Shown: positions 2,553 to 34,982 of the stretch, one piece after another
Layout of the letters: each line of letters starts with the position of its first letter
How positions within the stretch are numbered: position 1 is the stretch's first letter
Source of the DNA: a virus
Length of the DNA: 34,982 nucleotides
Reading direction: 5' to 3' (one strand)
IMG/VR virus record: IMGVR_UViG_3300027759_000020
Span: 1-34,982 of that record
Position numbers and translations under genes: made by a program
The notes under the pieces: model-generated
Databases searched by the model: none
Told to the model about the DNA's origin: nothing
The model's input: only the letters and a program-made list of their open reading frames with translations

Positions 2553-2927
2553 TTAGGACTGAGTTGGTACAGCTAATTCATATTTAGTTAAAAGTTCCCA
2601 AGCCTTTTCTTGAGAAATTTCTGGCAATACTACATCATCAAGCCCATCACCATCGCGTATTGCATGAATGCAACAAAATACCGTATTAGGTTCTTTAGCC
2701 GTAAATTGATGGGAAATTCCTTTGGGCGTGACAATCAATGTTGGCGCTTTGTATTCTTGTTCTCCCTTGTCATGCTTCATCAAAACTGAACCGGTTGCCA
2801 ACAATGTCACATGATCAAACGCATGTGCATGGCCTTGGTGAGTGTCACCGGCTCTTAAAAATTGATGTAGTTTTACAAAAACATTGTCAACTACTTGCAT
2901 GGCCTCAACAACTTCAGACACGTTCAA
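2553..2927 (-). CDS. Small cupin-fold protein
   Basis: A 124-aa single-domain protein with a cupin pattern: histidines at 30, 33, 35 and 39 in the first motif (GDTHQGHAHAFDH), a glycine turn (LLATGSVLM), and a second motif with His73 (VTPKGISHQF). These would bind a metal inside a beta barrel. No substrate can be named. It overlaps the upstream gene by 14 bp and lies 2 bp before the fibre-anchor gene, so it is made with tail-fibre proteins. Small cupins of this type occur in aquatic phage fibre clusters, and a structural or sugar-binding role is as likely as enzymatic activity. Confidence 0.7.
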   Translation of the reverse strand: MNVSEVVEAMQVVDNVFVKLHQFLRAGDTHQGHAHAFDHVTLLATGSVLMKHDKGEQEYKAPTLIVTPKGISHQFTAKEPNTVFCCIHAIRDGDGLDDVVLPEISQEKAWELLTKYELAVPTQS

Positions 2928-5245: not shown

Positions 5246-5608
5246 TTACGCTAAAAATTTCAACTTGTAAAGCGTTCGCAAATAGACCTCAACAATGTTG
5301 TCAATCAATTGCTGCAATGAGGTATCTTCTTTGTCGCACACTTTGTACCGCGCGTCTTCAATTTCTTTAAGTGAATCTTCTAAAAACTCAATGACATTGG
5401 TTGTCTTTTTAGCTGAATGCAACGAAATTGGGCCAATCAGCCCATACCGTCCTTGGTACGCTTCAGCAAAATCATCTGCCGCACCAATAATTCGGTCGTA
5501 GAAAATGCCTAACGCAATATGCTTGGAATAGCTGCGTGTGTTCAGATGCACACTGTGGGTAACATCTCTCGCTAAAAATAGCAAACCTACAAATTCAGCG
5601 GCTTTCAT
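5246..5608 (-). CDS. DUF5856-like phage protein
   Basis: A 120-aa all-helical protein (MKAAEFVGLLFLARDVTHSV, HLNTRSYSKHIALGIFYDRI, FAEAYQGRYG, then a helix ending VYLRTLYKLKFLA). It matches the phage family usually labelled DUF5856. The spaced His/Glu/Asp residues in helices look like a ferritin- or Dps-type bundle, but metal binding is unproven. Its ATG overlaps the portal stop (ATGA). In other phages the gene also sits near portal or terminase genes. Role in the particle or cell is unknown. Confidence 0.7.
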   Translation of the reverse strand: MKAAEFVGLLFLARDVTHSVHLNTRSYSKHIALGIFYDRIIGAADDFAEAYQGRYGLIGPISLHSAKKTTNVIEFLEDSLKEIEDARYKVCDKEDTSLQQLIDNIVEVYLRTLYKLKFLA

Positions 5609-15909: not shown

Positions 15910-17835
15910 TTATTTGCCATATACAGACATGATCGCCACCTCTGCACCAAGGGGTAAACCCTTAGCCCAGTTAGGTGGCGTACACATCACACGTTCCAAT
16001 CTTTCGGCCATTTCCTGTGGCCTGTCAGTTTCTAACACTATTTCGTCATGCACATGAAGTACCACGTCATCAAGCTGGCGCAAGGCGTAACGCAGTAAAT
16101 CGTTGGCGGTGGCTTGGGTGATATTCTCACACGCCAGCCCTTTCCACAACCTTGCGCGCGGCCATTCTTTTGCATCTGCTGCCGGTTTCCAAGCGGCCTT
16201 GGCGTAGGTCACGCCGTCGGTTTCCAGCTTGGCAAAAGGGTAGCAAAGCACACGTCCAGAGGGCAAAGCATACCAAAGGTGCTGACCGTCAAACAGATAG
16301 GTAACCCGCCCCACGCTGAATTCATGGCCTTTGTTTCGCATGGCGCGGGTGTAGGCTTCTTCTAGGTTTTGCCAGTACGGCACCGACCAGGGGTTGGCTC
16401 TGCGCCAGCCGTCCACCATGCGCTTGGCGTCCGATTCAGGTAGATGTACGCCGTACACGCGGCCCATCGCAGCAAAGGCACCGATGCCACCGGCAAAGCC
16501 GCAGGCTAACTCTTGGACTTTGCCAATTTGGCGCTGTTCACCGGTTACCTGATCGACCGACACGCCAAAGGTAGCGGCGGCGTTGACCTTGTACACGTCG
16601 TCACCTTGGGCAAAGATGGCCAGCTTACGCTCGCCTGCCGCGCAGTTGGACAGCCACGGGTTGGCGCGGGCTTCGATGGATGACCAGTCGGCCACGACTA
16701 GGGACTTTCCCTTAGCTGGTATCAGTGCGGGCCTGAGCATTCCTCGGAGGACATCAGTAACGCGCTTTCCAAATTGTGGAACAATTGAATGGCCTCTGAC
16801 CATTGCAACTCTAACGTCTTCGGGCGATTTAGCACATTTCCGAGTGAAATTATGAACTTGGGCTCCGTAGCTTGAAGCTCTACCAGTGGCTGACCCTCCC
16901 GCGAATACGAAAGCACCTCGCACTCGGTGGTCTTCGACGTCTGCAAGGCTTGCAAGGCGGCTGAACTTCGCAACCGAAGACGCCCATAGGTCGTCGGCGC
17001 ATTGGATGACCTCGGCAACAGCGGGCGGTATCTCATCGGCGTTCTCCATCGCAAGCAAGTTAGCCCGCACAGTTTTGTCAATCGAATATTTCTTCTCGCC
17101 GTCCTTGTAAGACTCCATCAGCTTGAGCGCTTGTGGCCCTACACGGTCAATCACCCACTGACGCATCTTAGGGGATCTGACGCTAGTGATCGCGCCTTCG
17201 GTGACCTCGGCCACGATCTGCTCAATCTCAATCAATTCGTCACTGGCAAACTTGACGGCTGCATGGCACAAAGGCACGTCCACTAACACGCCACGGTCGT
17301 TGATCCGCTCGTTGACGTGGTAGTCGGCCAGTTCATCTTCTGACAGCGGGCGCAGGGCTTTGCTGATCGAACGCATGGCACGGACATCCTGCTCACAGTA
17401 TTGGATCATCTCGGCCATGAGCGCGGGATCTTCTTTAAATGGGGGTATGCACAACAAGCGGATCAGTTGGGCACCACGGTGGTCTTTCTTCATAGACGCG
17501 CCAGCAAAGCGGCCAACGTCTTCCAGCGAGCCAGGCGCGCAATTGGCGCGGGCTTGCGAAGCGGTGCAGTAGAACTGCTCCAGCTTAAAATTTATTTGCA
17601 ACACGTACCAAAAGATCAGGCGCTCAAACGCTGCGTTGTGGGCGTAGATCATGCCGGTGTGGTTGCGTAATGCTTCGGGGAAAGGCTGGCTGGGTAGCCA
17701 TGTCTGCACATCATCTTCACCAAAAGCGTAGGACATGCACAGCACCTCGGTGCTGGCGTCCTGAGCGTAGTTGTAAACGCCTGCGGCTTTTAGGTCGCAG
17801 GCGCTACGGGTTTCAAAGTCAACCCAAAGAGTCAT
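15910..17835 (-). CDS. Family A DNA polymerase with proofreading domain
   Basis: A 641-aa replicative polymerase. The 3'-5' exonuclease domain has DFE (Asp6, Glu8), NAAFE (67-71) and YCEQD (146-150). The polymerase domain shows motif A VVADWSSIEAR (Asp383), motif B RQIGKVQELACGF (from Arg435, Lys439) and motif C HVHDE (Asp597, Glu598). No 5' nuclease domain is present, as usual for phage enzymes. The catalytic residues appear intact. It overlaps the stop of the ssDNA-binding gene (TGATG), so both are made together, and primase-helicase follows. Confidence 0.95.
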   Translation of the reverse strand: MTLWVDFETRSACDLKAAGVYNYAQDASTEVLCMSYAFGEDDVQTWLPSQPFPEALRNHTGMIYAHNAAFERLIFWYVLQINFKLEQFYCTASQARANCAPGSLEDVGRFAGASMKKDHRGAQLIRLLCIPPFKEDPALMAEMIQYCEQDVRAMRSISKALRPLSEDELADYHVNERINDRGVLVDVPLCHAAVKFASDELIEIEQIVAEVTEGAITSVRSPKMRQWVIDRVGPQALKLMESYKDGEKKYSIDKTVRANLLAMENADEIPPAVAEVIQCADDLWASSVAKFSRLASLADVEDHRVRGAFVFAGGSATGRASSYGAQVHNFTRKCAKSPEDVRVAMVRGHSIVPQFGKRVTDVLRGMLRPALIPAKGKSLVVADWSSIEARANPWLSNCAAGERKLAIFAQGDDVYKVNAAATFGVSVDQVTGEQRQIGKVQELACGFAGGIGAFAAMGRVYGVHLPESDAKRMVDGWRRANPWSVPYWQNLEEAYTRAMRNKGHEFSVGRVTYLFDGQHLWYALPSGRVLCYPFAKLETDGVTYAKAAWKPAADAKEWPRARLWKGLACENITQATANDLLRYALRQLDDVVLHVHDEIVLETDRPQEMAERLERVMCTPPNWAKGLPLGAEVAIMSVYGK

Positions 17836-18474: not shown

Positions 18475-19602
18475 TTATTGAAGTTTAGAGAGGGCAGCGG
18501 TCAATTGCTTACCCAAGATCATCACTTCGGGGCGCGGGTCGTCTGCGCTGGCCAAAGTGTTACCCGAAGAGATGGCGACGACTAGATCGTCCGGCAATGC
18601 CTTCTTGCGCTTTTTGAGCGCCTTTTCAGCCTTGGCCGGAGAGACTATCGAAGTCTCCATCACTTCAGATTCTGTCAGACCGAACGCAAACAAAGCGACC
18701 TTAGCCTTGTCTTCGTCAGTCCATTGTCTGATGGCACGTTTGGCCACCAACTTGTAGTCGGGGAGTCTTGCGCCTGAGTCAAGCATCTGCAACGCTAAGG
18801 CTCGCAAGTCAGTGATCCACTGCTCTAGCATATCAGCATTCTTTAAATACGCGCTGATTGTGGGCGCGTCCAAACCATCGATGCTGGTCTTCAAAGCGCG
18901 GTCTACTGCGCCGGTCATCTGTGGGCAGATGGGCTTGGCCGCGCACCAGCGGCAGTGGTCGCCGATCTTCAGTTCAGCATTCGGTTGTTGCGCCAGCTTG
19001 ACTGCTTTTATCAAGTCTTTTTCAAACTGGGCAATGCGAGCGGGTGTGGTCACCCAGCGCTTGACTTGGGGTGGCTGCACGATCACGCATTCGATTTCTT
19101 CGACACCATCAAACGCCCACTTGGTTTCTTCGGTACGCATGGCGGCAGCGGCGTAGAACATCAGTTGCGGATTTTCTTCTACCTCTACAGCAACGCCGTC
19201 GCCAAACTTCCAATCAAGTACAACAGCGCGTTTGCCAATGCGACCGATAAGATCAGTGCTACCAAACACGTCAGGTAGTAAATCGCCAAAGCCAACGCGT
19301 GTTTCAGCTTCAATTTCCATCTCCTTGTTGGGGTCGATTACGTCCAGCGCCGCAAGGGCTGGCACCAGCTTGTTGTCGATCAATTCCAAGGTAAGGATTT
19401 GATCGTTGTACTTGGTGTGCAAAAACTCTTCAGGGTGTTTGTCCGACATCACAAGTTCAGCGATGACGTTGTGCAACAGCGTACCCTCATCGGCGTACTT
19501 GTTGCTGGGCTGGGGTGGCATCTTTTGCACCAAGGCTACTGAGCCTGGGCAGTTCATAACACGCTTGGCGGTTGAGCCGCCGACAATATTACTGTGGTTC
19601 AC
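18475..19602 (-). CDS. DUF2800-like PD-(D/E)XK nuclease (Cas4/RecB type)
   Basis: A 375-aa protein with nuclease-fold residues: His44 (EGTLLHNVIAEL), Asp117 (DVFGSTDLIG), Asp130 and Lys132 (VVLDWKFG), and Gln146/Tyr150 (NPQLMFYAAA). Four cysteines, Cys18 near the start and Cys217, 220 and 226 (DHCRWCAAKPICP), can hold an Fe-S cluster, as in Cas4 and AddB-type enzymes. It belongs to the DUF2800 group seen beside phage polymerases. It probably trims or recombines DNA during replication. First gene of the leftward unit, with an AAGGAG ribosome site. Confidence 0.85.
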   Translation of the reverse strand: MNHSNIVGGSTAKRVMNCPGSVALVQKMPPQPSNKYADEGTLLHNVIAELVMSDKHPEEFLHTKYNDQILTLELIDNKLVPALAALDVIDPNKEMEIEAETRVGFGDLLPDVFGSTDLIGRIGKRAVVLDWKFGDGVAVEVEENPQLMFYAAAAMRTEETKWAFDGVEEIECVIVQPPQVKRWVTTPARIAQFEKDLIKAVKLAQQPNAELKIGDHCRWCAAKPICPQMTGAVDRALKTSIDGLDAPTISAYLKNADMLEQWITDLRALALQMLDSGARLPDYKLVAKRAIRQWTDEDKAKVALFAFGLTESEVMETSIVSPAKAEKALKKRKKALPDDLVVAISSGNTLASADDPRPEVMILGKQLTAALSKLQ

Positions 19603-19671
19603 TGAACTCTCCTTTAGTTGATTGAGACTGAACTATAGCATAGAAAATAAAACTGTGCTAAACTTTTTGAC
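19603..19671. promoter_or_regulatory. Divergent promoter region
   Basis: This 69-base AT-rich gap separates the leftward replication unit from the rightward VRR-NUC unit. On the minus strand TGCTATAGT (19640-19632) is an extended -10 with five of six matches. On the plus strand TTGATT (19618-19623), 17 bases and TAGAAA (19641-19646) form a weaker promoter. The two overlap, so transcription in one direction may hinder the other. Confidence 0.5.
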
Positions 19672-19950
19672 ATGAGAGAAAAAATAATTGAAAATCATTT
19701 TGTATGGGCGGTTGAGCGCATTGGTGGCAAGACGTACAAGTTCACGTCACCAGGTCGCAAAGGCGTCGCTGACAGGATTGCGTGTTTTCCTGATGGCAGT
19801 ACATGGTTTGTGGAGTTGAAGACCAAGGGTGGCAGGCTGTCGGGGTTGCAAAAGCTGTTTGCGGATGACATGACGGCCTTAAATCAGAAGTATGCGTGTT
19901 TGTGGACAAAGGAACAGATTGACTTATTCATTACGACCTTACCAAAATGA
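19672..19950 (+). CDS. VRR-NUC domain nuclease
   Basis: A 92-aa protein consisting of one VRR-NUC domain: helix with Glu7, GVADR (31-35), VELK (47-50) and Gln60. These are the metal-binding and catalytic positions of this PD-(D/E)XK subfamily, also found in the eukaryotic FAN1 nuclease. Stand-alone phage versions can cut Holliday junctions or flaps. It is followed by the SNF2-like helicase gene, an often-seen pairing. No clear ribosome site before the ATG. Confidence 0.88.
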   Translation: MREKIIENHFVWAVERIGGKTYKFTSPGRKGVADRIACFPDGSTWFVELKTKGGRLSGLQKLFADDMTALNQKYACLWTKEQIDLFITTLPK

Positions 19951-21232
19951 GGCGGCTGACTTTTTGTATGAGCGCGACCGGGCCATGATCTTGGCACCTG
20001 TTGGCGCTGGCAAGACGGCCATCACCCTCACAGCCATGCAGGACATGCTGGCCGACGGTGTGGCCAAGCGCTTCCTTGTTCTGGCGCCCAAGCGCGTCTG
20101 TACCGACGTGTGGCCAGTTGAGCAACTCAAGTGGGCACCCAACGTACCGTTGGCCGTGGCGGTGGGCACACCTAAGCAGCGCTTGGCTGCGTTACGTTCT
20201 GACGCGCAGATTGTGGTCAGCAACTACGACAACATTGCTACGCTACCCACAGCAAGTTTTGATGCAATTGTGTTTGACGAATTGACGCGCTTGAAGAACC
20301 CATCAGGCGCGCGTTTCAAGGCGCTCAAAATTGACCACATCAATATCCGCTGGGGCTTGACCGGTAGCTTCACCAGCAACGGATTAGAAGACGTCTTTGG
20401 CCAGTGCAAGATAGTATCTACTGCTTTATTGGGTCGATCCAAAGGCGCGTTCATGCAACAGTATTTTGTGCTGATCAACAAAGACTTTGGTGAGTGGGCG
20501 CCGCGTGTTGGATCGCTGGCCAAGGTCATGGAGCGCATCAAGCCTGCAACTTATGTCTTGGATGCTGGCGAGTACAAGGACAAGCTGCCGCCCCTGCACG
20601 TCGTCGAGGTGCGGTGCGACCTAGACGACCGCGAGCCCTACGAAAAGATGAAAAAAGACTTTCAAGCGCTGGACGTCACCGCGATAAATGCGGGTGTGGT
20701 AACTGGCAAATTGCAACAGATGGCCAGTGGGTTTGTGTACGACACACGTAGGACTGCCTCCGAAATTGCCGGTAGGTTCGATTCTACGCAAACCGCCGTA
20801 TGGTTTAGCGCCCATAAATTTGACCGGCTTGAGGAGTTACTAGATGAAAACCAACATGCCAATACTATCTTGGTCTACCAGTACCAAGAAGAACTCGCCG
20901 AGATTCAACGTCGATTTAAAGTCACCACGCTGGACGACGCTGATGCAATCACGCGATGGAATAACGGTGACGTGCGACTGCTTGCCGTTCACCCTAAGTC
21001 AGCAGGCCACGGACTTAACTTACAACATGGAGGATGTCACATGGTGTTTTTGTCCTTGCCGTGGAGTTTGGAATTGTACGAACAGACCGTTGGTCGTCTG
21101 CACCGGTCAGGCCAATCACACGCTGTGTGGGTCTACGTGATGATGACCAACAAAACTATTGACGAAAAGATTTGGGGTGCGCTGCATGACAAACGCGCCG
21201 TATCGGATATTGCAATGGAGGAACTGAAGTGA
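19919..21232 (+). CDS. SNF2-family DNA helicase/translocase
   Basis: A 437-aa superfamily 2 ATPase starting MTYSLRPYQNEAADF. The RPYQ segment acts as the adenine-recognition motif, Walker A is PVGAGKT (27-33), motif II is VFDE (118-121), and the C-terminal RecA-like half has SAGHGLNL and the motif VI QTVGRLHRSGQ. It should move along duplex DNA using ATP, with the VRR-NUC partner cutting. I prefer TTG 19919, with AAGGAA upstream. An ATG at 19892 would lengthen it by 9 residues into the nuclease gene. Overlap with the nuclease gene is 32 bases. Confidence 0.88.
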   Translation: MTYSLRPYQNEAADFLYERDRAMILAPVGAGKTAITLTAMQDMLADGVAKRFLVLAPKRVCTDVWPVEQLKWAPNVPLAVAVGTPKQRLAALRSDAQIVVSNYDNIATLPTASFDAIVFDELTRLKNPSGARFKALKIDHINIRWGLTGSFTSNGLEDVFGQCKIVSTALLGRSKGAFMQQYFVLINKDFGEWAPRVGSLAKVMERIKPATYVLDAGEYKDKLPPLHVVEVRCDLDDREPYEKMKKDFQALDVTAINAGVVTGKLQQMASGFVYDTRRTASEIAGRFDSTQTAVWFSAHKFDRLEELLDENQHANTILVYQYQEELAEIQRRFKVTTLDDADAITRWNNGDVRLLAVHPKSAGHGLNLQHGGCHMVFLSLPWSLELYEQTVGRLHRSGQSHAVWVYVMMTNKTIDEKIWGALHDKRAVSDIAMEELK

Positions 21233-25050: not shown

Positions 25051-25248
25051 TTACAACCCCAAGATTTTTTTGATAAGCTCGCCAGCAACGCCTGGGCCAA
25101 ACAGCACGGCAACAATCACAATGTAGATTAGGTACTCAATCCGCGTCATACGCTTGTCGCCGTCAATGAATGACTTCTCAATGGCCGCGTAGCGTTCGGC
25201 GCAAACCGCTTCGTGTACTGCTATCTTGGTGGGTGTATCGTCAATCAT
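25051..25248 (-). CDS. 65-aa membrane protein, holin or XhlA-like
   Basis: A 65-aa protein (MIDDTPTKIAVHEAVCAERY, AAIEKSFIDGDKRMTRIEYL) with one membrane helix (IYIVIVAVLFGPGVAGELI). Small proteins with this N-terminal helix plus single span resemble hemolysin XhlA-type lysis helpers. The start lies 8 bases inside the end of the ejection-protein gene. A longer ORF from 25311 is not needed. First gene of the lysis cassette. Confidence 0.62.
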   Translation of the reverse strand: MIDDTPTKIAVHEAVCAERYAAIEKSFIDGDKRMTRIEYLIYIVIVAVLFGPGVAGELIKKILGL

Positions 25249-27073
25249 ATTGTGGCGCCATGCCGCGCAGTTCAATTCGCATTGCGTTTTGGTTTTCTTG
25301 CGCGGGCGCAAGGGCGTTTTGTGTTTGCGTGATGACGTTTAACTTAGTTGGGCTTAAGTTGGCTTGGCCAAGAGCCCTAAGCACATCAAGGCGTTGCGAC
25401 GCAGGGACTTTTTTCAGAAGTGTTTCAAAGTCTTTTGCAGACGCAAAACCTTTTTCAAGTTCCTTCAGCACGTTTGCGCTCATTGTGTCTTTTAAAATGT
25501 CCAGCATTTGGTTTGTCACCGTTACTTTGACATCTAAAAAGCTAGGCAAACGAAACTTGGATTGGTTAGCTTCCATGATTATTTTCATGGCATCTGCGCC
25601 AGCTTGCGTTTGACGCACAACTTCGGCGTTGCGTTTTAACTCAGACTCAATACCTTTGACCACACCCATTTGTTGTGGCGACAGTACTTGACTTAGATCG
25701 TCGTACCTTGCCGCACCAGTTGATTTCTTGAGCAGTGCAGTTTCGCCGCGCCCTAATGCAGTCATAAATGGCCCAGCGCGTTCACCAGCGCCGAGGGGTT
25801 GCGCGAGGACGTCTTGCATTGCGCCCAAAACTTTAGCTTGGTTAACTGGGGGCGATGCGGCGGCAAAGACTTGCTGGGCGCGTTCATACCCTGGCAAGGC
25901 TTGCTCAATTGTTTTCTTAACGTCAACCAAGTTGCTAACGATAAATTTATTGTCTTTACTAGAAATCAAATCTTTAAGGTTATCTAGCACCGAAGACACT
26001 TGTTCTGCGCTACTGCTTGCTTGTAAACCTGTTTTTACTTGTTCTAACGCAGACACCAGCTTAGTGTTGCCGGGGTTTGCCGCCAAAATTGCATCAACTT
26101 GTTGCGTCAGCGGCGCGGTGTTAACCGGCGTTAATGGTAATGTGGCTGCGTTATAAAGCGGCCTAGACGCATTTGTCCGCGCAAGTTCTGCGGCTTGCAA
26201 ATCAGGTGTGATCCCTTGCAACTGCGCCATGCGGTTTGTTTCTTGTGCTTGCGCTACGGACAGCGCGTTACCAGGTGCGGTTTTAGCTTGAACAGTTTCG
26301 CCAAGATATTGAACTTGTGGTGACGGCACATCGGCCAAAGCCTGTCGCACGGTCATATCTGGGCGCGCATTAGCCAACGCATTTTGCGCGGCGGCTAAGT
26401 TTTGCGGCGCTCTGCCGTCTTCAGTCAACGCATTACGCACAATACTGCCTGCGCGTGTTGCTGCACGTTCGCCCGATATTGCGTCAATTACATTGCCTGC
26501 GCCTTTGGCACCCAGCGCCAGCCCATAGTTAGCCGCCGCAGTAACAGGTGCCAATGGGTTGGTGAACTTGGCCGCAGTGCCCATTACTTTAGACGCTGCG
26601 GGTGCTAGGCGGGCCGTTGCTGACGCGCCACCACTAAACAATGTGGACAGGTCAGCCGCTGCGCCAACAGGGTCAGTGGCCAAAGTGTTTTTTAGCGCTT
26701 CGACGCTACCGTAGCGGTCTTTAAACATGCCGCCAACAGCGTTTGCCGTATCAACGGCGCGTTTGGCTGCTTCAGGGTTGTTGTCAATTTGGTTGACCAA
26801 AGTAACAAGTTCTTTAGGCAACAAATTTTGCAGCGCGCCCGCGCCAACATCTAATATGCCTGTTGCTGTTTGCACAGGGTTTGTAATTGCGGTAATCAAA
26901 CCTTTATAAAAATTTGCCGCGCTTGTCCCTACGTTAGCTAACGCTTCACCTGGTACATCTGAAAATGATCGGCGCTTCGTAGGAATGCCGTCGCCGCTTG
27001 ACGCTGGTTTTGCGGTGCTAAGATCAAATCCACCAGTTGCGACTGGCGCGGCGGTGCTGAGATCAAAACCCAT
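25241..27073 (-). CDS. Ejection (internal virion) protein, 610 aa
   Basis: A 610-aa Ala/Gln/Asn-rich, helical protein at the place of the P22 gp20/gp16-type ejection proteins. The N-terminus carries a tandem motif GFDLSTAAP ... GFDLSTAKP, then a helical region (VPGEALANVGTSAANFYKGL, AITNPVQTATGILDVGAGAL), and the C-terminus is a long coiled stretch. It should be packed in the head and enter the cell with the DNA to help it cross the envelope. No enzymatic domain seen. It is coupled to the upstream gene by TAATG. Confidence 0.7.
   Translation of the reverse strand: MGFDLSTAAPVATGGFDLSTAKPASSGDGIPTKRRSFSDVPGEALANVGTSAANFYKGLITAITNPVQTATGILDVGAGALQNLLPKELVTLVNQIDNNPEAAKRAVDTANAVGGMFKDRYGSVEALKNTLATDPVGAAADLSTLFSGGASATARLAPAASKVMGTAAKFTNPLAPVTAAANYGLALGAKGAGNVIDAISGERAATRAGSIVRNALTEDGRAPQNLAAAQNALANARPDMTVRQALADVPSPQVQYLGETVQAKTAPGNALSVAQAQETNRMAQLQGITPDLQAAELARTNASRPLYNAATLPLTPVNTAPLTQQVDAILAANPGNTKLVSALEQVKTGLQASSSAEQVSSVLDNLKDLISSKDNKFIVSNLVDVKKTIEQALPGYERAQQVFAAASPPVNQAKVLGAMQDVLAQPLGAGERAGPFMTALGRGETALLKKSTGAARYDDLSQVLSPQQMGVVKGIESELKRNAEVVRQTQAGADAMKIIMEANQSKFRLPSFLDVKVTVTNQMLDILKDTMSANVLKELEKGFASAKDFETLLKKVPASQRLDVLRALGQANLSPTKLNVITQTQNALAPAQENQNAMRIELRGMAPQYD
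27012..27070 (-). repeat. Short tandem repeat encoding GFDLSTA twice
   Basis: Two 20-base copies with two mismatches (27012-27031 and 27051-27070) are spaced 39 bases apart, encoding GFDLSTA[KA]P. They lie at the very start of the 610-aa ejection protein. Confidence 0.75.
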
Positions 27074-28428
27074 TATTTTGCCTCTTTAAATGATTTACGG
27101 TCTGGGCTTACCCATGCTTTGTTGCCGCTTGCGTCGCTTTCATATGTCCAATTAGGGCCAACGCCTTCTGGGCGTGACGCGCTGTTTTTGACAGAAGATA
27201 ACGGCGGCACGTCGGGGGCAGTACGAAGCCCCATACCTTCAATTGACGATTGAGGTATATCTTTAAACCGAGTGTTCCAAGCTTGTACGCTGCGAGTAGC
27301 AGCTTGGTGTTGAAGCGTGGCCAACCGCGTAAGTGCCTGCGGCGTAAGGTCAATTGTGCCCCCTGCAATACCTTGCAAGAAGACAAGATCTTTGTCGGTA
27401 AAGCCCTGCCCAGTACCCAAACCAGCGTCTTTAATTGCGTTCAAAGTGCCTTGCCCTGAAGCGGAGATAAGCGATTCGGTGTTGGCAATTTTCTCTTCGT
27501 TGCTTGCGCCTGCTACGTTTAGCGCGCGCGCAATGTTTAACTTAATAGTTGAAGCAGGGCCAACAAATAAGTTGCCTTGTTTTACCAAGTCAATAATTCG
27601 ATTGGCACCCGCCGCCAATTCAGGCGCTTTTTCTGCTGCACCTAACTTAGCATCATCGCGATCTGCTATGTTTCCTGCTAATTTTTCACCATATTTTTTC
27701 TCAGTGCTAAGAGACACTTTTGTTGCACCTTTTTCAGCGACTGCCATTTTTTGTGCTTGAACAGCAGCAGGCAACGGAACATCGGCAAAGGTGCCAAGCG
27801 GTGTGACTTTGTTAGTGAACGGTGCTATTTGCATTACGTCAGTTTGACCGTATCGGTTAACTTGTATATTTGACGGTTTCAATTCGCTTGCGCTTGCGCC
27901 TTGACTTGCCATAAATGCTGTTCGTTGGTCAACCGGCATAGCCAAAATTCGGTCAACACTTGCAACCATCTGCGCCTTTTCAGCGTCAGTAAACAGGTCG
28001 TTAGCCATCAAGTCTTCTTTATACGCTGTAATATTGGCGTCAGAAGGGTTTTGACTTGTGTCGCGTTGCACCTGTGCAAGAAAATCTTTTCTTGCTTTTT
28101 GGATTTTGAACTTTGTTTCTTTTTGCGTCAAGCCCGCCGTTTCGGCTTCGGTCAAGGCTTTGCCATAAGCTAAACCAGTTTTGCCAAATCTATTAACCCC
28201 CGTTCGCCCTTCGGGAGTAGACAAATCAGCTTTTTCCAAATAAGTACGCAAGCCTTCTTCTTCATTACGCGCGCGCTCATACTCTTGCAGTTTTAGCGCG
28301 TTCATTTGGCTTTCTTGGTCAGCCTGTTTAAACTTCATCACGTTTGTCAACGCGTTCATTGGCGAAAGCTGCGCAAAGTCAATTTGCGGGGGTCTTGCGC
28401 CAAGAATAATGTTGGGATCGAGTGGCAT
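27073..28428 (-). CDS. Ejection (internal virion) protein, 451 aa
   Basis: A 451-aa helical protein (MPLDPNIILGARPPQIDFAQ, LSPMNALTNVMKFKQADQES) with a long coiled N-terminal half rich in Gln, Lys and Glu. The C-terminal half (GNLFVGPASTIKLNIARALN, SLISASGQGTLNAIKDAGLG, TGQGFTDKDLVFLQGIAGG) resembles the conserved part of podoviral ejection proteins. It ends SDASGNKAWVSPDRKSFKEA. Position between the other two ejection-type genes supports this. No catalytic motif seen. Confidence 0.7.
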   Translation of the reverse strand: MPLDPNIILGARPPQIDFAQLSPMNALTNVMKFKQADQESQMNALKLQEYERARNEEEGLRTYLEKADLSTPEGRTGVNRFGKTGLAYGKALTEAETAGLTQKETKFKIQKARKDFLAQVQRDTSQNPSDANITAYKEDLMANDLFTDAEKAQMVASVDRILAMPVDQRTAFMASQGASASELKPSNIQVNRYGQTDVMQIAPFTNKVTPLGTFADVPLPAAVQAQKMAVAEKGATKVSLSTEKKYGEKLAGNIADRDDAKLGAAEKAPELAAGANRIIDLVKQGNLFVGPASTIKLNIARALNVAGASNEEKIANTESLISASGQGTLNAIKDAGLGTGQGFTDKDLVFLQGIAGGTIDLTPQALTRLATLQHQAATRSVQAWNTRFKDIPQSSIEGMGLRTAPDVPPLSSVKNSASRPEGVGPNWTYESDASGNKAWVSPDRKSFKEAK

Positions 28429-28440
28429 TTTTGTTCCTTA

Positions 28441-29739
28441 CTATAAGGCTACGCGGGGTGTGCTTAAATATTTGTTCAACAACGCGTTTTGCTGGTTCAT
28501 GCCATATAAGTTTAAGCCCATACCAATACCGGAGTTAATTGCATTTGCAGAACCAATTTGTCCCGCTGCCCTTGCGTTGGCCGCACCAGTAATTGCATTG
28601 ATCTGACCCGCGCCTTGATTGCCGTAGATATTGGTTAAGTTGCTGCCAAAATTACCGTAAGCACTTTGACGCGCGGCACCAGAACCAGCATACGCGTTTG
28701 ACATGCTATTTCCAAAATTACCGTAAGCAGCAGCATTACCCGCACCTTGCTGTGCGGCGATATTGCCCGCAGCCCCACCGTAATTACCATACGCGTTGCT
28801 TGCGCCTGCGCCAGCACTTTGAATAGCTTGTGAACCGCCAGCAGACAAGCCACCCGCAGCAGCAGCTTGCCCCGCAGCAGCAGCTTGACCTACGCCTTGC
28901 AATGACTGCAATGCGCCTAATTGATTTCCGCGCTCGGTAGTAAAGCGGTTAAAAGCGTTGCTGTACTCTTGCGCTTGAAAAGCTTTATTGGCTTGAAAAC
29001 GGTCAAACGCGGCGGCAGTTGCGGCTTGGGAACGGTTAAACGCGTTTTGGTATTCTTGCGAACCCATAGTCTGCCCGTACTCAGCAGCCGCCTTGAGCGC
29101 AGCGCCAGACTGCAAACCGCCTCTAGCCGCAGTCGAACGCTCAATAGCTTTTTGACCTTCGGCCAAACGAAACGCATAGCCGGGGTCTGCTTCTTGTTTT
29201 GTTGTATCAACAAATTCTTTAAACAGTGTGCTGGGATCAAACCCTTCAAGCTTAAAAGCAGTAGTGGCAGAGCCAAAACCTGGCGCTTTTTTGTCGCCGC
29301 CCAAACCCAACAATTCCAATAAACGAGTTTGGCCTGCTTCGCCTGCCTCTTTGTACGAGCTTAGATTTTCAATTTGCTTATTGAACATCTCTCGTTGCAA
29401 TCCAAGCGTTTGGTCAAGCGCTCTTTGCTGCGCGCCTAACTGCTGGTTCAACATGTCTTTAGCTACCGTGTTTCCGGTATCTGCTGCTAACTTTTGAGCC
29501 GCTAACGTCCTATCAAGTGCGGTTTGTTGTGCAGCAAGTTGTTTATCAAGCGATTCTTTTTCAGCCGCAAGTTGCGTCGTCAATGTTTCTTTTTGAGCAG
29601 CAATTTGCTTTTCAGCAACTTCTAGCGATACATCGCCCGCCGCAGCAGCGGCGGCGGCTTGGGTGTTGGCCGCGCTTTTTGACGCGTTCGATGTAATAAC
29701 GGAACCAACAACTACTGCGCCAGCAACCCATGCACTCAT
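28441..29739 (-). CDS. DNA transfer/ejection protein, gp7-like, 432 aa
   Basis: A 432-aa protein with a hydrophobic start (MSAWVAGAVVVGSVITSNAS), a long Ala/Gln/Lys coiled coil (residues about 35-125), the conserved block PGYAFRLAEGQKAIERSTAA and RGGLQSGAALKAAAEYG, and a Gly/Ala/Asn/Tyr-rich end with repeated AYGNFG and AYGNYG units. This layout is typical of phage DNA-transfer proteins in P22-like and related podoviruses. It would be expelled into the envelope to make the channel. Coupled to the SET gene by ATGA. Confidence 0.75.
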   Translation of the reverse strand: MSAWVAGAVVVGSVITSNASKSAANTQAAAAAAAGDVSLEVAEKQIAAQKETLTTQLAAEKESLDKQLAAQQTALDRTLAAQKLAADTGNTVAKDMLNQQLGAQQRALDQTLGLQREMFNKQIENLSSYKEAGEAGQTRLLELLGLGGDKKAPGFGSATTAFKLEGFDPSTLFKEFVDTTKQEADPGYAFRLAEGQKAIERSTAARGGLQSGAALKAAAEYGQTMGSQEYQNAFNRSQAATAAAFDRFQANKAFQAQEYSNAFNRFTTERGNQLGALQSLQGVGQAAAAGQAAAAGGLSAGGSQAIQSAGAGASNAYGNYGGAAGNIAAQQGAGNAAAYGNFGNSMSNAYAGSGAARQSAYGNFGSNLTNIYGNQGAGQINAITGAANARAAGQIGSANAINSGIGMGLNLYGMNQQNALLNKYLSTPRVAL

Positions 29740-30575
29740 AATGTTTCTCCTTGCATCGTAAAGCCAAAATTGACTCTCATTGATGCTCTGTAGTCAACTA
29801 ACAATTCATCGCCTGCGGTGATTTTACGCGAAGCAACGGCAAATATGTTATCCCCAACCAACTCTGGCCGAATGTTACCGTTTAAGGAGTGATTGATAAA
29901 TCTTCCGCCAGGGGTACGCTTTCCGTCAAGTCTACCCGGACAAACAGTGTCACCCGCCTCAAAGTCTTTGGTCGCAAAAAGCCCAAGGCCGTGAATGCTG
30001 GAAGGTTTAAGTTCTACAAAGAACCCCTCTGGCATGTCAATCAGGTCTGATTCAATTTGCGCTATCTTGGCTACGTCGGCGTCTGTTATGCCTAACTGGT
30101 GCAAAAATAATCCGTAATCAATTTGTGCTTTTTGAACATCTGTCCGACTGTCGGCCAACCCGCACTTGGGGGCAACGTACAGCCGGTCTTCAAGAACCGC
30201 AAGGTCGGTGCAGTTGTCAGGGTTGTCGTAAATGTCTACCCAAACTACTTCTTCATCAAAAACGCGGCCTGCACGTTGCATTCCAGCTTTAGATTCAAAC
30301 TCACACGGCGCGGTAAAAACCTTGACGCCGTCGTCTGTGTTGACAGCAATTGTGCCTTTTTCTAACCGCACACGATATGAAGTCTTGTGTTCTGCGCCCG
30401 TCAGCACGGTCCAAGCGGGGATCGTAATCGCTCGCTCATAGATGCCCAGCAGAAACGTGTGCGTTGTAACAATGTCAGCCTGTGGCATTTTTAGTAGTTC
30501 GTTTTGAAGCGCCGTGACTTTTTTGGCCATAGGCAACGCAAAATCAAATCCTTTACCGTAGGTTACTGTGATCAT
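29736..30575 (-). CDS. Fusion of a cupin-like domain and a SET methyltransferase domain
   Basis: A 279-aa protein. Residues about 30-140 look like a small beta barrel seen in other phage proteins (LLGIYERAITIPAWTVLTGA, EHKTSYRVRLEKGTIAVNTD). Residues 184-265 are a compact SET domain: SSIHGLGLFATKDFEAGDTV (Gly196, Gly198), GGRFINHSLNGNIRPEL (Asn228, His229) and KITAGDELLVDY (Tyr262). These match the S-adenosylmethionine and catalytic motifs, so lysine methylation is plausible. The target is unknown: a virion protein by context or a host protein. It sits between a fibre-like gene and the ejection genes, coupled to both by ATGA. Confidence 0.85.
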   Translation of the reverse strand: MITVTYGKGFDFALPMAKKVTALQNELLKMPQADIVTTHTFLLGIYERAITIPAWTVLTGAEHKTSYRVRLEKGTIAVNTDDGVKVFTAPCEFESKAGMQRAGRVFDEEVVWVDIYDNPDNCTDLAVLEDRLYVAPKCGLADSRTDVQKAQIDYGLFLHQLGITDADVAKIAQIESDLIDMPEGFFVELKPSSIHGLGLFATKDFEAGDTVCPGRLDGKRTPGGRFINHSLNGNIRPELVGDNIFAVASRKITAGDELLVDYRASMRVNFGFTMQGETL

Positions 30576-31285
30576 GATGCCATCACCACCCAGTTTGTGC
30601 CGTCAGATACAAGCGTCGCCCATGCACCCACGGTGGCGGCAAGGATTGCTGTGCCCGGCGTGGCGCTGCCAATAGGTGCGACGTTGCTCGACGCTGATAC
30701 CAGCGTCTGAGTTTGCAAATTCTTAAACGTCACCACGCGGCCTGGCGCTGATGACGCAGCAGGAAGTGTGACCGTACAAGTCGAGCCGGACTTGTTGTTG
30801 ATGACCCAGCCTTCAGTATCAGCAAGCGTAAAGTCGGCGACTTTGGTGACAACCGTAGGGCGCACTGTTAAACCTGTGCCGCCATTGGCAATGGGCACGG
30901 CACCATCAAGTCGAAGTGAGGCGTCTAAGTTGCCAGTTGTTTGCGAAGGTAAACTAATATTTGATAACGTACCACCTAACGTCAAATTACCCGCAGTTGT
31001 TACAGTACCTGTCAAAGTAATACCGTTTGCACCTCCAACGCCAGTTACGCTTGTAACGCTTCCATTACCTGTACCCACACCTAAATTTATACGTGCTTGC
31101 GTTGCGTTATCCGCGCCTGTTCCCCCATTGGCTATTTGGGCAACACCTAATGTAGAACCGCCTGATACCACATATATGTTGTTAAAAAATCGAAACCATT
31201 CCCGCGAAATTAAACCCGTCTGCGTGTCAAGCAATGCCACTCGCGCAGAAGGTATCTTGGTAATGTTCGGTGAGGTATCAGGCAT
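30572..31285 (-). CDS. Fibre-like structural protein, 237 aa
   Basis: A 237-aa beta-rich protein. It starts with MPDTSPNITKIPSARVALLD, TQTGLISREWFRFFNNIY, a collar-attachment-like opening, and has the fibre-type repeats ANGGTGADNATQARINLGVG and PIANGGTGLTVRP. The end is beta-rich (VTLPAASSAPGRVVTFKNLQ). It takes the place held in P22 by the tail needle gp26, so it could be a needle replacement or an appendage. Overlaps gp10 by 8 bases. Confidence 0.68.
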   Translation of the reverse strand: MPDTSPNITKIPSARVALLDTQTGLISREWFRFFNNIYVVSGGSTLGVAQIANGGTGADNATQARINLGVGTGNGSVTSVTGVGGANGITLTGTVTTAGNLTLGGTLSNISLPSQTTGNLDASLRLDGAVPIANGGTGLTVRPTVVTKVADFTLADTEGWVINNKSGSTCTVTLPAASSAPGRVVTFKNLQTQTLVSASSNVAPIGSATPGTAILAATVGAWATLVSDGTNWVVMAS

Positions 31286-32936
31286 TGGTTGCGCTTACAT
31301 TTAGTTCAGCGCCCATGATTGCAATTTTTACGGTATCAGTGCCCGACACTTCGTAAACACGGTCGCGCAGCTTTAACGTCATGCCCAACCTACGCCAGAT
31401 CACGCGTCGTCCCCATTGACCGGTTAGACCCATTGACCGCCAGTGTTCGTTACTCCAAGTGTGCCCGCCGTCATCAGACCAACGCAACATAACTTGAGGA
31501 TCAATAGCAGTTGATGTAGGAAGCCCAGTTTCTACTAGCATTCTGCCGCCCGTAACAGCAGGCCCGTCAACAATTACAAGTTGACCGCCATTTTCTTGCA
31601 CAAGCTCACTGCCACTTTCGGTCAGTATTACATCGTTAGACGCAGGGTCAACATACTCCCACACAAGAAAATCACCATTTTCAGCAAGCAAATCATCATT
31701 TGGGCTTGAAATGTCAACAATGACAATTGGCGTAGTGACATCAGAATTGATAGCGCCTGTCTCTGCGTCAAGCTGAAGCGAATGCTGGGCAGTGCGTTTT
31801 AAATCATTTGTGCCGACCGGCAGCGCTCTCCATGACCGAAGCCACTTTTGCACTGCGCCAGCATCTGAGAACACATCTAAATCAAACGCGTAGATGTTGC
31901 CAAGTTCATGGTCGCCCACAACAATTTCGCCGTTATACGCCATTTGGCAGTTTGAGCGATGACGGGTAAACGAGCCATTAATAAACGCAGCGCGCTCATG
32001 CCACAACGCGGTAGCAACGTCAAACACCCAAGTAACATTAGCTGACGGAAAAATCAGCACATAGAACGAATGGCCGTCTTGCTGGTATGTGTATGCAATA
32101 GCATCTGAAAGGTTTTCGTACTGTTGAATTTGCCACTCTACGGCGTGTGTAGATATTCGTTCGGCGGTGTAACCATTGGCGCGGTAGACAATACCCTTGC
32201 CGCGCGCATCGGCACCCAACCAAAAAAGGCCGTTGTCTAGCTTGGCAACCGAGAAAGCTGCAATACAGCCAACCTCGTTGAACGCGCCTTGAACGGGAAC
32301 TAACGGGAACGGAGATGTGCCCGCGTCGTACCAGACCTCAACTGAATTGGTTCCAAACAACCATATCTCGCGGTGGTCAACAATAAGCGACACCAAGCCA
32401 TCAGGAGAGCCTTCAGCGCTTGCAAAGTCAAGTGGGTCTATGGATGTGCCATCCAACAATTGCGTGATCCATATTCGCTGGCTATTTGGCTCATTGAACA
32501 CAAAGTAGCCGTTGATGTAACCTACCGTAACCGCGCCTGGAAAGTCAGGATCAGTGATCTGTTTAAACTCTAACGTCAGACTGTTGTAGATAAAACTGGG
32601 GCCGTTACAAGCAATAAATAGCTGTGTGCCGTTGTCGGACATGCTGACGGGGCCGGACGATCCCGCAACAGTGCCAATAAACTTAACATTCCAAATACTG
32701 TCAACTCTGTACAGTGTTTCACCAGACACAACGTATCCGTACCCGCCAAATTGCCACAACCCACGAATTGGCCCATCGCCCATGTTTGCCAAAAGGCGCA
32801 GCCCAGGCGCGCGGTTTAAAAACCCCGGCTCTTTACCGCCGTCGGGCACGGCCTCTGGAAAAAGGTTGACCATCCGCGCGTCGGCAGCGTTAACGCTACG
32901 CGCTACATAGGCCGACCCAAGAATAGGTGTCTTCAT
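31278..32936 (-). CDS. gp10-like packaged-DNA stabilisation protein (tail hub)
   Basis: A 552-aa protein with the P22 gp10 pattern: MKTPILGSAYVARSVNAADA, RMVNLFPEAVPDGGKEPGFL, RAPGLRLLANMGDGPIRGLW, then a beta-propeller-like body (SVEVWYDAGTSPFPLVPVQG, WLGADARGKGIVYRANGYTA) and DPQVMLRWSDDGGHTWSNEH near the end. It binds gp4 below the portal and closes the head after packaging. Two ENG/ESG motifs (residues about 413-455) resemble the 54-aa protein. ATG 32936 overlaps the gp4 stop; a TTG one codon upstream is less likely. Confidence 0.88.
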   Translation of the reverse strand: MKTPILGSAYVARSVNAADARMVNLFPEAVPDGGKEPGFLNRAPGLRLLANMGDGPIRGLWQFGGYGYVVSGETLYRVDSIWNVKFIGTVAGSSGPVSMSDNGTQLFIACNGPSFIYNSLTLEFKQITDPDFPGAVTVGYINGYFVFNEPNSQRIWITQLLDGTSIDPLDFASAEGSPDGLVSLIVDHREIWLFGTNSVEVWYDAGTSPFPLVPVQGAFNEVGCIAAFSVAKLDNGLFWLGADARGKGIVYRANGYTAERISTHAVEWQIQQYENLSDAIAYTYQQDGHSFYVLIFPSANVTWVFDVATALWHERAAFINGSFTRHRSNCQMAYNGEIVVGDHELGNIYAFDLDVFSDAGAVQKWLRSWRALPVGTNDLKRTAQHSLQLDAETGAINSDVTTPIVIVDISSPNDDLLAENGDFLVWEYVDPASNDVILTESGSELVQENGGQLVIVDGPAVTGGRMLVETGLPTSTAIDPQVMLRWSDDGGHTWSNEHWRSMGLTGQWGRRVIWRRLGMTLKLRDRVYEVSGTDTVKIAIMGAELNVSATNA

Positions 32937-33652
32937 CAATAGTTACCGGCATAGACGTTAAAACGCTGGCGTGTGGCAACAAGCGCGTAGGGCATCGACA
33001 TGATGTCGTCAGGATTGTTGATGCGTTTTAGATTGCGTTTGCTGGTCATAGCAATCCGTTGCACTTGAGGGCTTGGCTCAACGCCAAACTCTGGCGCTAT
33101 TTCCATTGCCAAGTTGTAAGCAAACGCCCGCAAATAGCCCGGTGGAAACAGTATTTGCGTTGCCAACGTGGCAGGCTCATCTAATTTTTCAACGGATACA
33201 AAGTGCCATTCCAAGTCCCGTGTGGGCTTTGGATAGACCGTCATTGTGATATTTGGGTATTCCATGTTTATCCACATAACCTGTGGATATGTGGATGTCA
33301 CGGTTTTAACCGCAATACCGCTGTATTGCTGCTGATTAATAAACTTAATGCCAAACGACACGTTTGTACCCGGATCACGGAAATAAGTAGCGTCGTCCAG
33401 CAACACTGGGCGCAAGCCCACAAAGTCACCAGTTGGGCCAAGTGTGCGGGTAATTTGACTAGCGGGCCAAGTAAAGACTTGGTCTTGTGTGTTAAAAACC
33501 GACAATCGCTCGGTGTCCCACGAATCAATCATTTGATTGAGCGCCATCAACGCGTCATTTGACATGTCTGCCGAAGGTGTCTCACCTTCAGCTAGTACAC
33601 CTAACAAGCGCAATGCTCGGTTGATTTGATCGCCAGCGGTGTACGTTGCCAT
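32936..33652 (-). CDS. gp4-like tail accessory factor
   Basis: A 238-aa protein with the P22 gp4 (tail accessory factor) pattern: TAGDQINRALRLLGVLAEGE, MALNQMIDSWDTERLSVF, FPPGYLRAFAYNLAMEIAPE and KRNLKRINNPDD. It builds the first ring below the portal. P22 gp4 also has muramidase activity, but I cannot identify that site here. It is followed by gp10 with a TGATG overlap, the P22 order. Confidence 0.88.
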   Translation of the reverse strand: MATYTAGDQINRALRLLGVLAEGETPSADMSNDALMALNQMIDSWDTERLSVFNTQDQVFTWPASQITRTLGPTGDFVGLRPVLLDDATYFRDPGTNVSFGIKFINQQQYSGIAVKTVTSTYPQVMWINMEYPNITMTVYPKPTRDLEWHFVSVEKLDEPATLATQILFPPGYLRAFAYNLAMEIAPEFGVEPSPQVQRIAMTSKRNLKRINNPDDIMSMPYALVATRQRFNVYAGNY

Positions 33653-34845: not shown

Positions 34846-34866
34846 AAAAAACGGGGCCAAAGCCCC
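34846..34866 (-). terminator. Terminator after the coat gene
   Basis: Read leftward: GGGGC, TTTG, GCCCC, G and six T. It lies across the artificial contig end and just after the coat stop (the same stem arm is seen at 7-11). Transcription from the coat would drop here before the 134-aa gene. Confidence 0.82.
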
Positions 34867-34982
34867 ATTCGATTAGCCCCAGATGCGGCAAGCCATTTGT
34901 GGACGCATTGTGCTGAATCCGTACAAAACGTCAATACGGCAAGGCATACGGTCGTTGTTGATGTCGTACTGACGAACAATAC
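34856..34982. repeat. Right copy of exact 127-bp terminal direct repeat
   Basis: Identical to bases 1-127. Removing one copy gives a circle of 34,855 bp in which the coat-gene end joins the 134-aa gene at 34820. The bases seen here are the 3' end of the coat gene read on the minus strand. Confidence 0.93.

Follow-up and report, generated by a model that had tools for sequence, protein, structure and literature searches.

The window, meaning the whole 34,982-nt virus record analysed here, carries a gene for a 279-aa protein (P0001; 29736-30575 including the stop, minus strand) in which an N-terminal cupin domain is joined by a helical linker to a SET domain. Profile, fold and catalytic residues place the protein in the SET superfamily. 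Both folds, the invariant catalytic residues, purifying selection and a fixed gene order are demonstrated below. In the explanation that we favour, it would be a protein-lysine methyltransferase that uses AdoMet, is anchored at the tail/ejection assembly through its cupin and modifies proteins of the virion, those of ejection or others; to this complete reading we assign a probability of about 0.45.

An exact direct repeat of 127 bp at its termini (1-127 and 34856-34982) makes the genome appear complete; the late operon continues across both genome ends. The window is P22-like, with a P22-type portal (Pfam, 5e-180) and genes for gp10/Hc3 head closure, gp4/Ad3 head-tail adaptor, gp7-like DNA ejection, scaffold and major head proteins. 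Read along the minus strand, the head-closure gene (gp10/Hc3; 31278-32939; phrog_578, 2.7e-130; Pfam Phage_stabilise, 8.9e-7) is followed by a gene for a 237-aa fibre-like protein (30572-31285; weak match to tail fiber family phrog_5481, 2.4e-4), the cupin-SET gene and the gene of a 432-aa gp7-like protein (28441-29739; phrog_598 DNA ejection, 4.7e-19). Two further ejection genes on this strand, at the gp20 (27073-28428) and gp16 (25241-27073) positions, are without family match and are assigned by gene order as in P22 only. ATGA overlaps of 4 bp flank the cupin-SET ORF, with the fibre-like ORF upstream (30572-30575) and the gp7-like ORF downstream (29736-29739), in agreement with the coupling to fibre-like and ejection-protein genes that an earlier note on this DNA had described. 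Elsewhere in the window, a 120-aa ORF adjoining the portal gene (5246-5608, minus strand) matches phrog_858, a "starvation-inducible transcriptional regulator" (4e-24). At 18475-21232, near a family A DNA polymerase gene (15910-17835), opposite strands encode an SNF2-type helicase and a DUF2800 protein that resembles PD-(D/E)XK nucleases.

The SET domain spans residues ~181-270 (29766-30035, minus strand). The match of Pfam SET (PF00856) to residues 223-262 (E = 2.3e-9) scores 38.1 bits and clears the 22.4-bit cutoff, as do most further members tested; P26218 and ctfPj964 lie below it at 16.2 bits. Searched against the PDB, a profile built from the SET segments of the phage proteins extends the homology to the SET domain of MLL1 (3.8e-12) and to vSET of virus PBCV-1 (2.9e-8), and a single-sequence search with P0001 reaches SET8 (2.3e-4). 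The GxG, Asn-His and catalytic Tyr of the phage domain align with their counterparts in MLL1 and SET8. The motifs that the earlier note had read are all there on the minus strand, namely GxG (G196-L-G198; 29982-29990), NHS (N228-H229-S230; 29886-29894) and ELLVDY (E257-LLVD-Y262, with the predicted catalytic Tyr; 29790-29807); the span bounded by the first Gly and the Tyr is 67 residues long.

In the AlphaFold model of P0001, pLDDT is 81-97 in the SET domain and residues 172-279 match SET structures in Foldseek and VIA-align (VIA Z 10-11.4). A second model was built from a more diverse alignment for a distant member, L112, which is 29% identical to L001, the locus whose protein is 100% identical to that of the window; it matches both the cupin and the SET folds again with pLDDT 94. 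Across the two models, Z-scores to MLL1, EZH2, SET8 and vSET range from 8.8 to 11.4 and SET-domain pLDDT is mostly 90-98. Superposing vSET (3kma) on the L112 model aligns 80 residues, at 1.9 A and 36% identity. The P0001 model is unsure of the domain arrangement (pTM 0.49), whereas the L112 model is confident (pTM 0.89). Profile search and structure prediction, of the kind that the earlier note had proposed as checks, both return SET. Its structural claim of a SET domain behind a cupin-like domain in a virion operon is upheld by the family profiles, by two models built independently and by the conserved catalytic residues. The functions that it had inferred, methylation of virion proteins or travel in the particle to act on a host protein, are plausible. 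An accidental resemblance, or a different fold, would have to be reconciled with the Pfam and MLL1 profile scores (2.3e-9 and 3.8e-12) and with two high-confidence models at Z 10-11; no point in its favour was found in this analysis and its probability is negligible.

P0001 belongs over its full length to phrog_34170, an unnamed family of unknown function (1.1e-38). Its relatives in IMG/VR number 243 by window-specific patterns and at least 521 by broad alignment, and a SET-only profile finds relatives on at least 471 contigs, the last two sets overlapping. The fusion is found in cultured or complete phages, which are Rhodoferax phage P26218, Pseudoalteromonas phage PH1, zth2-2 and the Manatee Spring podoviruses. 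The expectation in the earlier note that SET domains are unusual in small podoviruses has to be given up: P22-like aquatic podoviruses, the cultured P26218 and PH1 among them, widely carry the cupin-SET proteins, which form an unnamed family. The family looks viral because the motif occurs at only 15 loci among 84,980 bacterial and archaeal genomes, mostly in metagenome bins and prophages. One relative (MW202744) carries the annotation "pbcV-1 histone H3-lys 27 methyltransferase structure". The literature yielded no account of a cupin-SET protein in phages, a weak absence since only open-licence papers were covered; methylation is not mentioned in the P26218 genome paper, and "set domain" in two phage papers designates immunoglobulin I-set/C2-set domains, not SET.

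Among 123 distinct proteins with a median pairwise identity of 32% (minimum 21%), S192, G196, G198, R220, G224, N228, H229, E257 and Y262 are invariant; the Ser of NHS is kept in 113 and replaced by Ala in 10. The Asn, His and Tyr whose loss in relatives would, according to the earlier note, speak against a SET domain are thus retained in 123/123. All 174 loci measured share a spacing of 32 residues between GxG and Asn. For the three closest pairs, in which synonymous sites are unsaturated, dN/dS is 0.04-0.10 in the SET domain and 0.08-0.11 in the cupin. Invariance combined with low dN/dS is what an AdoMet enzyme that is active would show, catalysis not being proven thereby. Cofactor binding and catalysis are predicted with good confidence, and the protein is probably a real, overlooked phage protein-methylating enzyme.

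The catalytic unit is unusually compact in one region. The phage SET core is ~35 residues shorter than that of MLL1 and ~20 shorter than PBCV-1 vSET, itself called the smallest histone methyltransferase (PMC7019647). From the GxG strand to NHS there are ~9 phage profile positions against 44 residues in MLL1, and ~13 phage positions against ~34 in vSET. The full SET-I insert, which forms the substrate groove in KMT2/EZH/SET8, is absent from the phage SET profile, most of it being missing. For this reason we file the protein as SET superfamily only and not as a histone methyltransferase; since SET-I helps to form the groove in the enzymes studied, the substrate site must be completed otherwise. 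A family-specific R-T-P-x-G-R element lies ahead of NHS, and R263 directly follows the Tyr. Two positions before the catalytic Tyr, SET enzymes often have a Phe/Tyr switch. The cupin-SET family has Val or Ile at that position, so no prediction of mono-, di- or trimethylation is made. Such a reduced SET could instead belong to a tail protein as a structural part or AdoMet sensor devoid of catalysis: the loss of most of SET-I and the constancy of the cupin speak for it, and PMC5094779 presents MLL5 as an example of a SET protein without activity. However, a catalytic Tyr and Asn-His that stay invariant at identities down to 21% are hard to explain without catalysis, and we consider this role quite improbable.

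The cupin domain covers residues ~32-136 (30168-30482, minus strand) and matches phrog_12032 (4.2e-22) and phrog_24280 (9.2e-20), labelled short tail fiber and tail fiber adhesin. Its fold is a double-stranded beta-helix (cupin/RmlC-like), with a Foldseek match to TM1459-type cupins (4e-6) and VIA Z of 9-10.7 for both AlphaFold models. In the P0001 model the barrel strands lie at 36-118, with pLDDT mostly 80-94; together with the cupin structure matches they substantiate the beta-barrel that the earlier note had placed ahead of SET. The metal-binding motif HxH(x)3-4E and the His of the second motif are absent from the P0001 sequence, where motif 1 keeps only H63 and motif 2 is devoid of His. 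By these motifs it is a metal-less cupin and not of the metal-dependent enzyme type. A second, stand-alone cupin ORF of 124 aa (2553-2927, minus strand; phrog_12032, 1.7e-6), situated among fibre-like genes of the window, has a metal-type HxH...H motif, unlike the SET-linked cupin. The "tail fibre" label of the family appears untrustworthy because no experimental basis for it was found in open-licence literature, and because of the cupin gene's neighbours in phages BPP-1, where it lies between a GNAT gene and bbp22, and vB_AspP-H4/4, where it is near a head-tail adaptor gene. Between cupin and SET, the helical linker (residues ~146-177; 30045-30140, minus strand), defined by AF2 secondary structure and conservation, has D153 conserved at 98%, G162 at 95% and D177 at 99%, and is retained in SET proteins that lack the cupin.

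Cupin and SET behave as separable modules. Cupin-only proteins occupy the same gene slot in Vibrio VvAW1, VPMS1, Thalassomonas BA3, Shewanella X14 and others. On a tree of cupin domains the SET label needs 6 changes, at least 4 of them forced by supported branches, with bootstrap not fully settled; this topology indicates that SET was gained or lost repeatedly on a cupin scaffold. Cupin and SET distances are correlated (Mantel r 0.72, 0/2000 permutations), as a single ancient fusion with subsequent losses would predict, and shared whole-genome ancestry would add to the correlation. SET is present in 75/76 IMG/VR loci from a cupin-pattern search, a list biased to full-length matches and not a frequency. 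The survey of relatives suggested by the earlier note finds the fusion recurring, alongside cupin-only and split versions. The split version is in a Paraburkholderia ferrariae prophage (L166, 7081-8561), first taken as a candidate cupin-less SET and rejected as such since the cupin is the adjacent gene: the two domains are encoded there by separate ATGA-coupled genes and are fused elsewhere, which argues that they work together. No cupin was detected near the SET module and helical linker of two small integrase/primase islands in Comamonadaceae and Rhodocyclales (L171, 2164-13844; L176, 98-8447), which have a protein of 215-230 aa in common. The stretches examined showed no capsid genes, and these islands may be phage satellites. 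In L171, from Comamonadaceae, the SET module precedes a gene with a gp7-like leader.

The position of the gene is stable. The downstream ORF matches the gp7-like profile in 144/170 loci, many of the remaining ones share the short Gly/Ala-rich MS-leader of that protein, and short overlaps dominate at the junction. In the explanation that we favour, the metal-less cupin, which belongs regularly to the tail/ejection block of genes in many podoviruses, would be a component of, or a chaperone for, the tail/ejection assembly. It would bring to this assembly a minimal SET domain acting as an AdoMet-dependent protein-lysine methyltransferase, which would methylate lysines of virion proteins translated alongside it; the likeliest substrates are the gp7/gp20/gp16-like ejection proteins or a neighbouring tail protein. 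Lysine as acceptor is a step that we infer, and the substrate class is the least certain one. The modification would not be generally required, because many phages have the cupin without SET. Besides the missing SET-I and the phages with the cupin alone, further points count against this explanation. No SET-specific lysine stands out in the neighbours: K197/K216 of the gp7-like protein are invariant and were rejected as candidates, since they belong to a family motif whose position is sometimes Arg, and no conserved lysine was found in the fibre-like neighbour gene. Against a tail/ejection role, the cupin sits beside GNAT or head-tail adaptor genes in BPP-1 and vB_AspP-H4/4 with no annotated ejection gene.

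The main rival follows the analogy of PBCV-1 vSET, which is packaged in the virion (PMC3946773) and methylates algal histone H3. The cupin-SET protein would likewise be carried in the particle and enter the bacterium together with the ejection proteins, where it would methylate a host protein of transcription, translation or defence. Its gene does lie between tail and ejection genes, and a patchy SET, with at least four forced changes on the cupin scaffold, fits a host-dependent function. However, the two domains are predicted to form a single rigid unit (pTM 0.89) that would need to travel through the tail conduit, and we hold host delivery to be possible and rather doubtful. Its broadest version, a large unrecognised class of podoviruses with a virion-borne, delivered SET, among the smallest active ones, methylating a bacterial protein as the prokaryotic counterpart of vSET, is unlikely. 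Virion proteomics for a member of the cupin-SET family was not found in the literature.

The gene slot would also suit a late-expressed enzyme outside the virion that, during infection, methylates a protein of the host or of the phage within the cell, for instance in particle assembly or counter-defence. P22 gp14, in the same slot, is annotated as head morphogenesis, and GNAT acetyltransferase genes adjoin the cupin-SET gene in zth2-2 (L085, 4102-4590) and in an IMG/VR contig (L130, 3010-3492), and the cupin gene in BPP-1 (bbp24; L268, 1980-2444), as if this were a place for modifying enzymes. However, gp14 is of a different family, and a general GNAT association was rejected, L085 and L130 being the only cases among the SET loci examined. 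P22 gp14 was also discarded as a cupin relative, since it is a DUF2824 protein (6e-53) and the cupin-SET proteins have no DUF2824 match; a link of gp14 to acetyltransferases was looked for and none could be demonstrated. An enzyme outside the virion is clearly unlikely.

Phage protein lysine methylation is almost unexplored and the cupin-SET family provides hundreds of natural examples, experimentally accessible through the cultured Rhodoferax P26218 and Pseudoalteromonas PH1. A SET domain without most of SET-I bears on how small the catalytic unit can get, and its fixed place by DNA-ejection genes raises the question of whether phages inject a methyltransferase or chemically alter their own ejection apparatus.

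Among known systems, PBCV-1 vSET (A612L, PDB 1n3j/3kma) is likewise a minimal viral SET with GxG, Asn-His and catalytic Tyr. The phage protein differs by its N-terminal cupin and helical linker, by a core ~20 residues shorter between the GxG strand and NHS, by hosts that are bacteria without nucleosomes, and by an activity that is so far a prediction. KMT2/MLL1 and SET8, the best sequence matches, share fold and catalytic residues; the phage protein has DYR where MLL1 has DYK and SET8 DYG, lacks a Cys-rich post-SET and misses ~35 SET-I residues. The stand-alone mini-SET proteins of phrog_28741 have a similarly shortened SET with RTPxGxxxNHS and no cupin. One of them is gp27 of Pelagibacter phage Kolga (102 aa, annotated hypothetical; L270, 2459-2767), which does not lie in a tail block in the region examined. 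P22 gp14 occupies the same slot as cupin-SET, between needle and gp7, and belongs to the different family DUF2824. The cupin proteins of phrog_12032/24280, such as VvAW1 gp04 and BPP-1 Bbp23, are homologous to the cupin of P0001 and have no SET; VvAW1 gp04 stands, like cupin-SET, in the slot ahead of the DNA-ejection gene.
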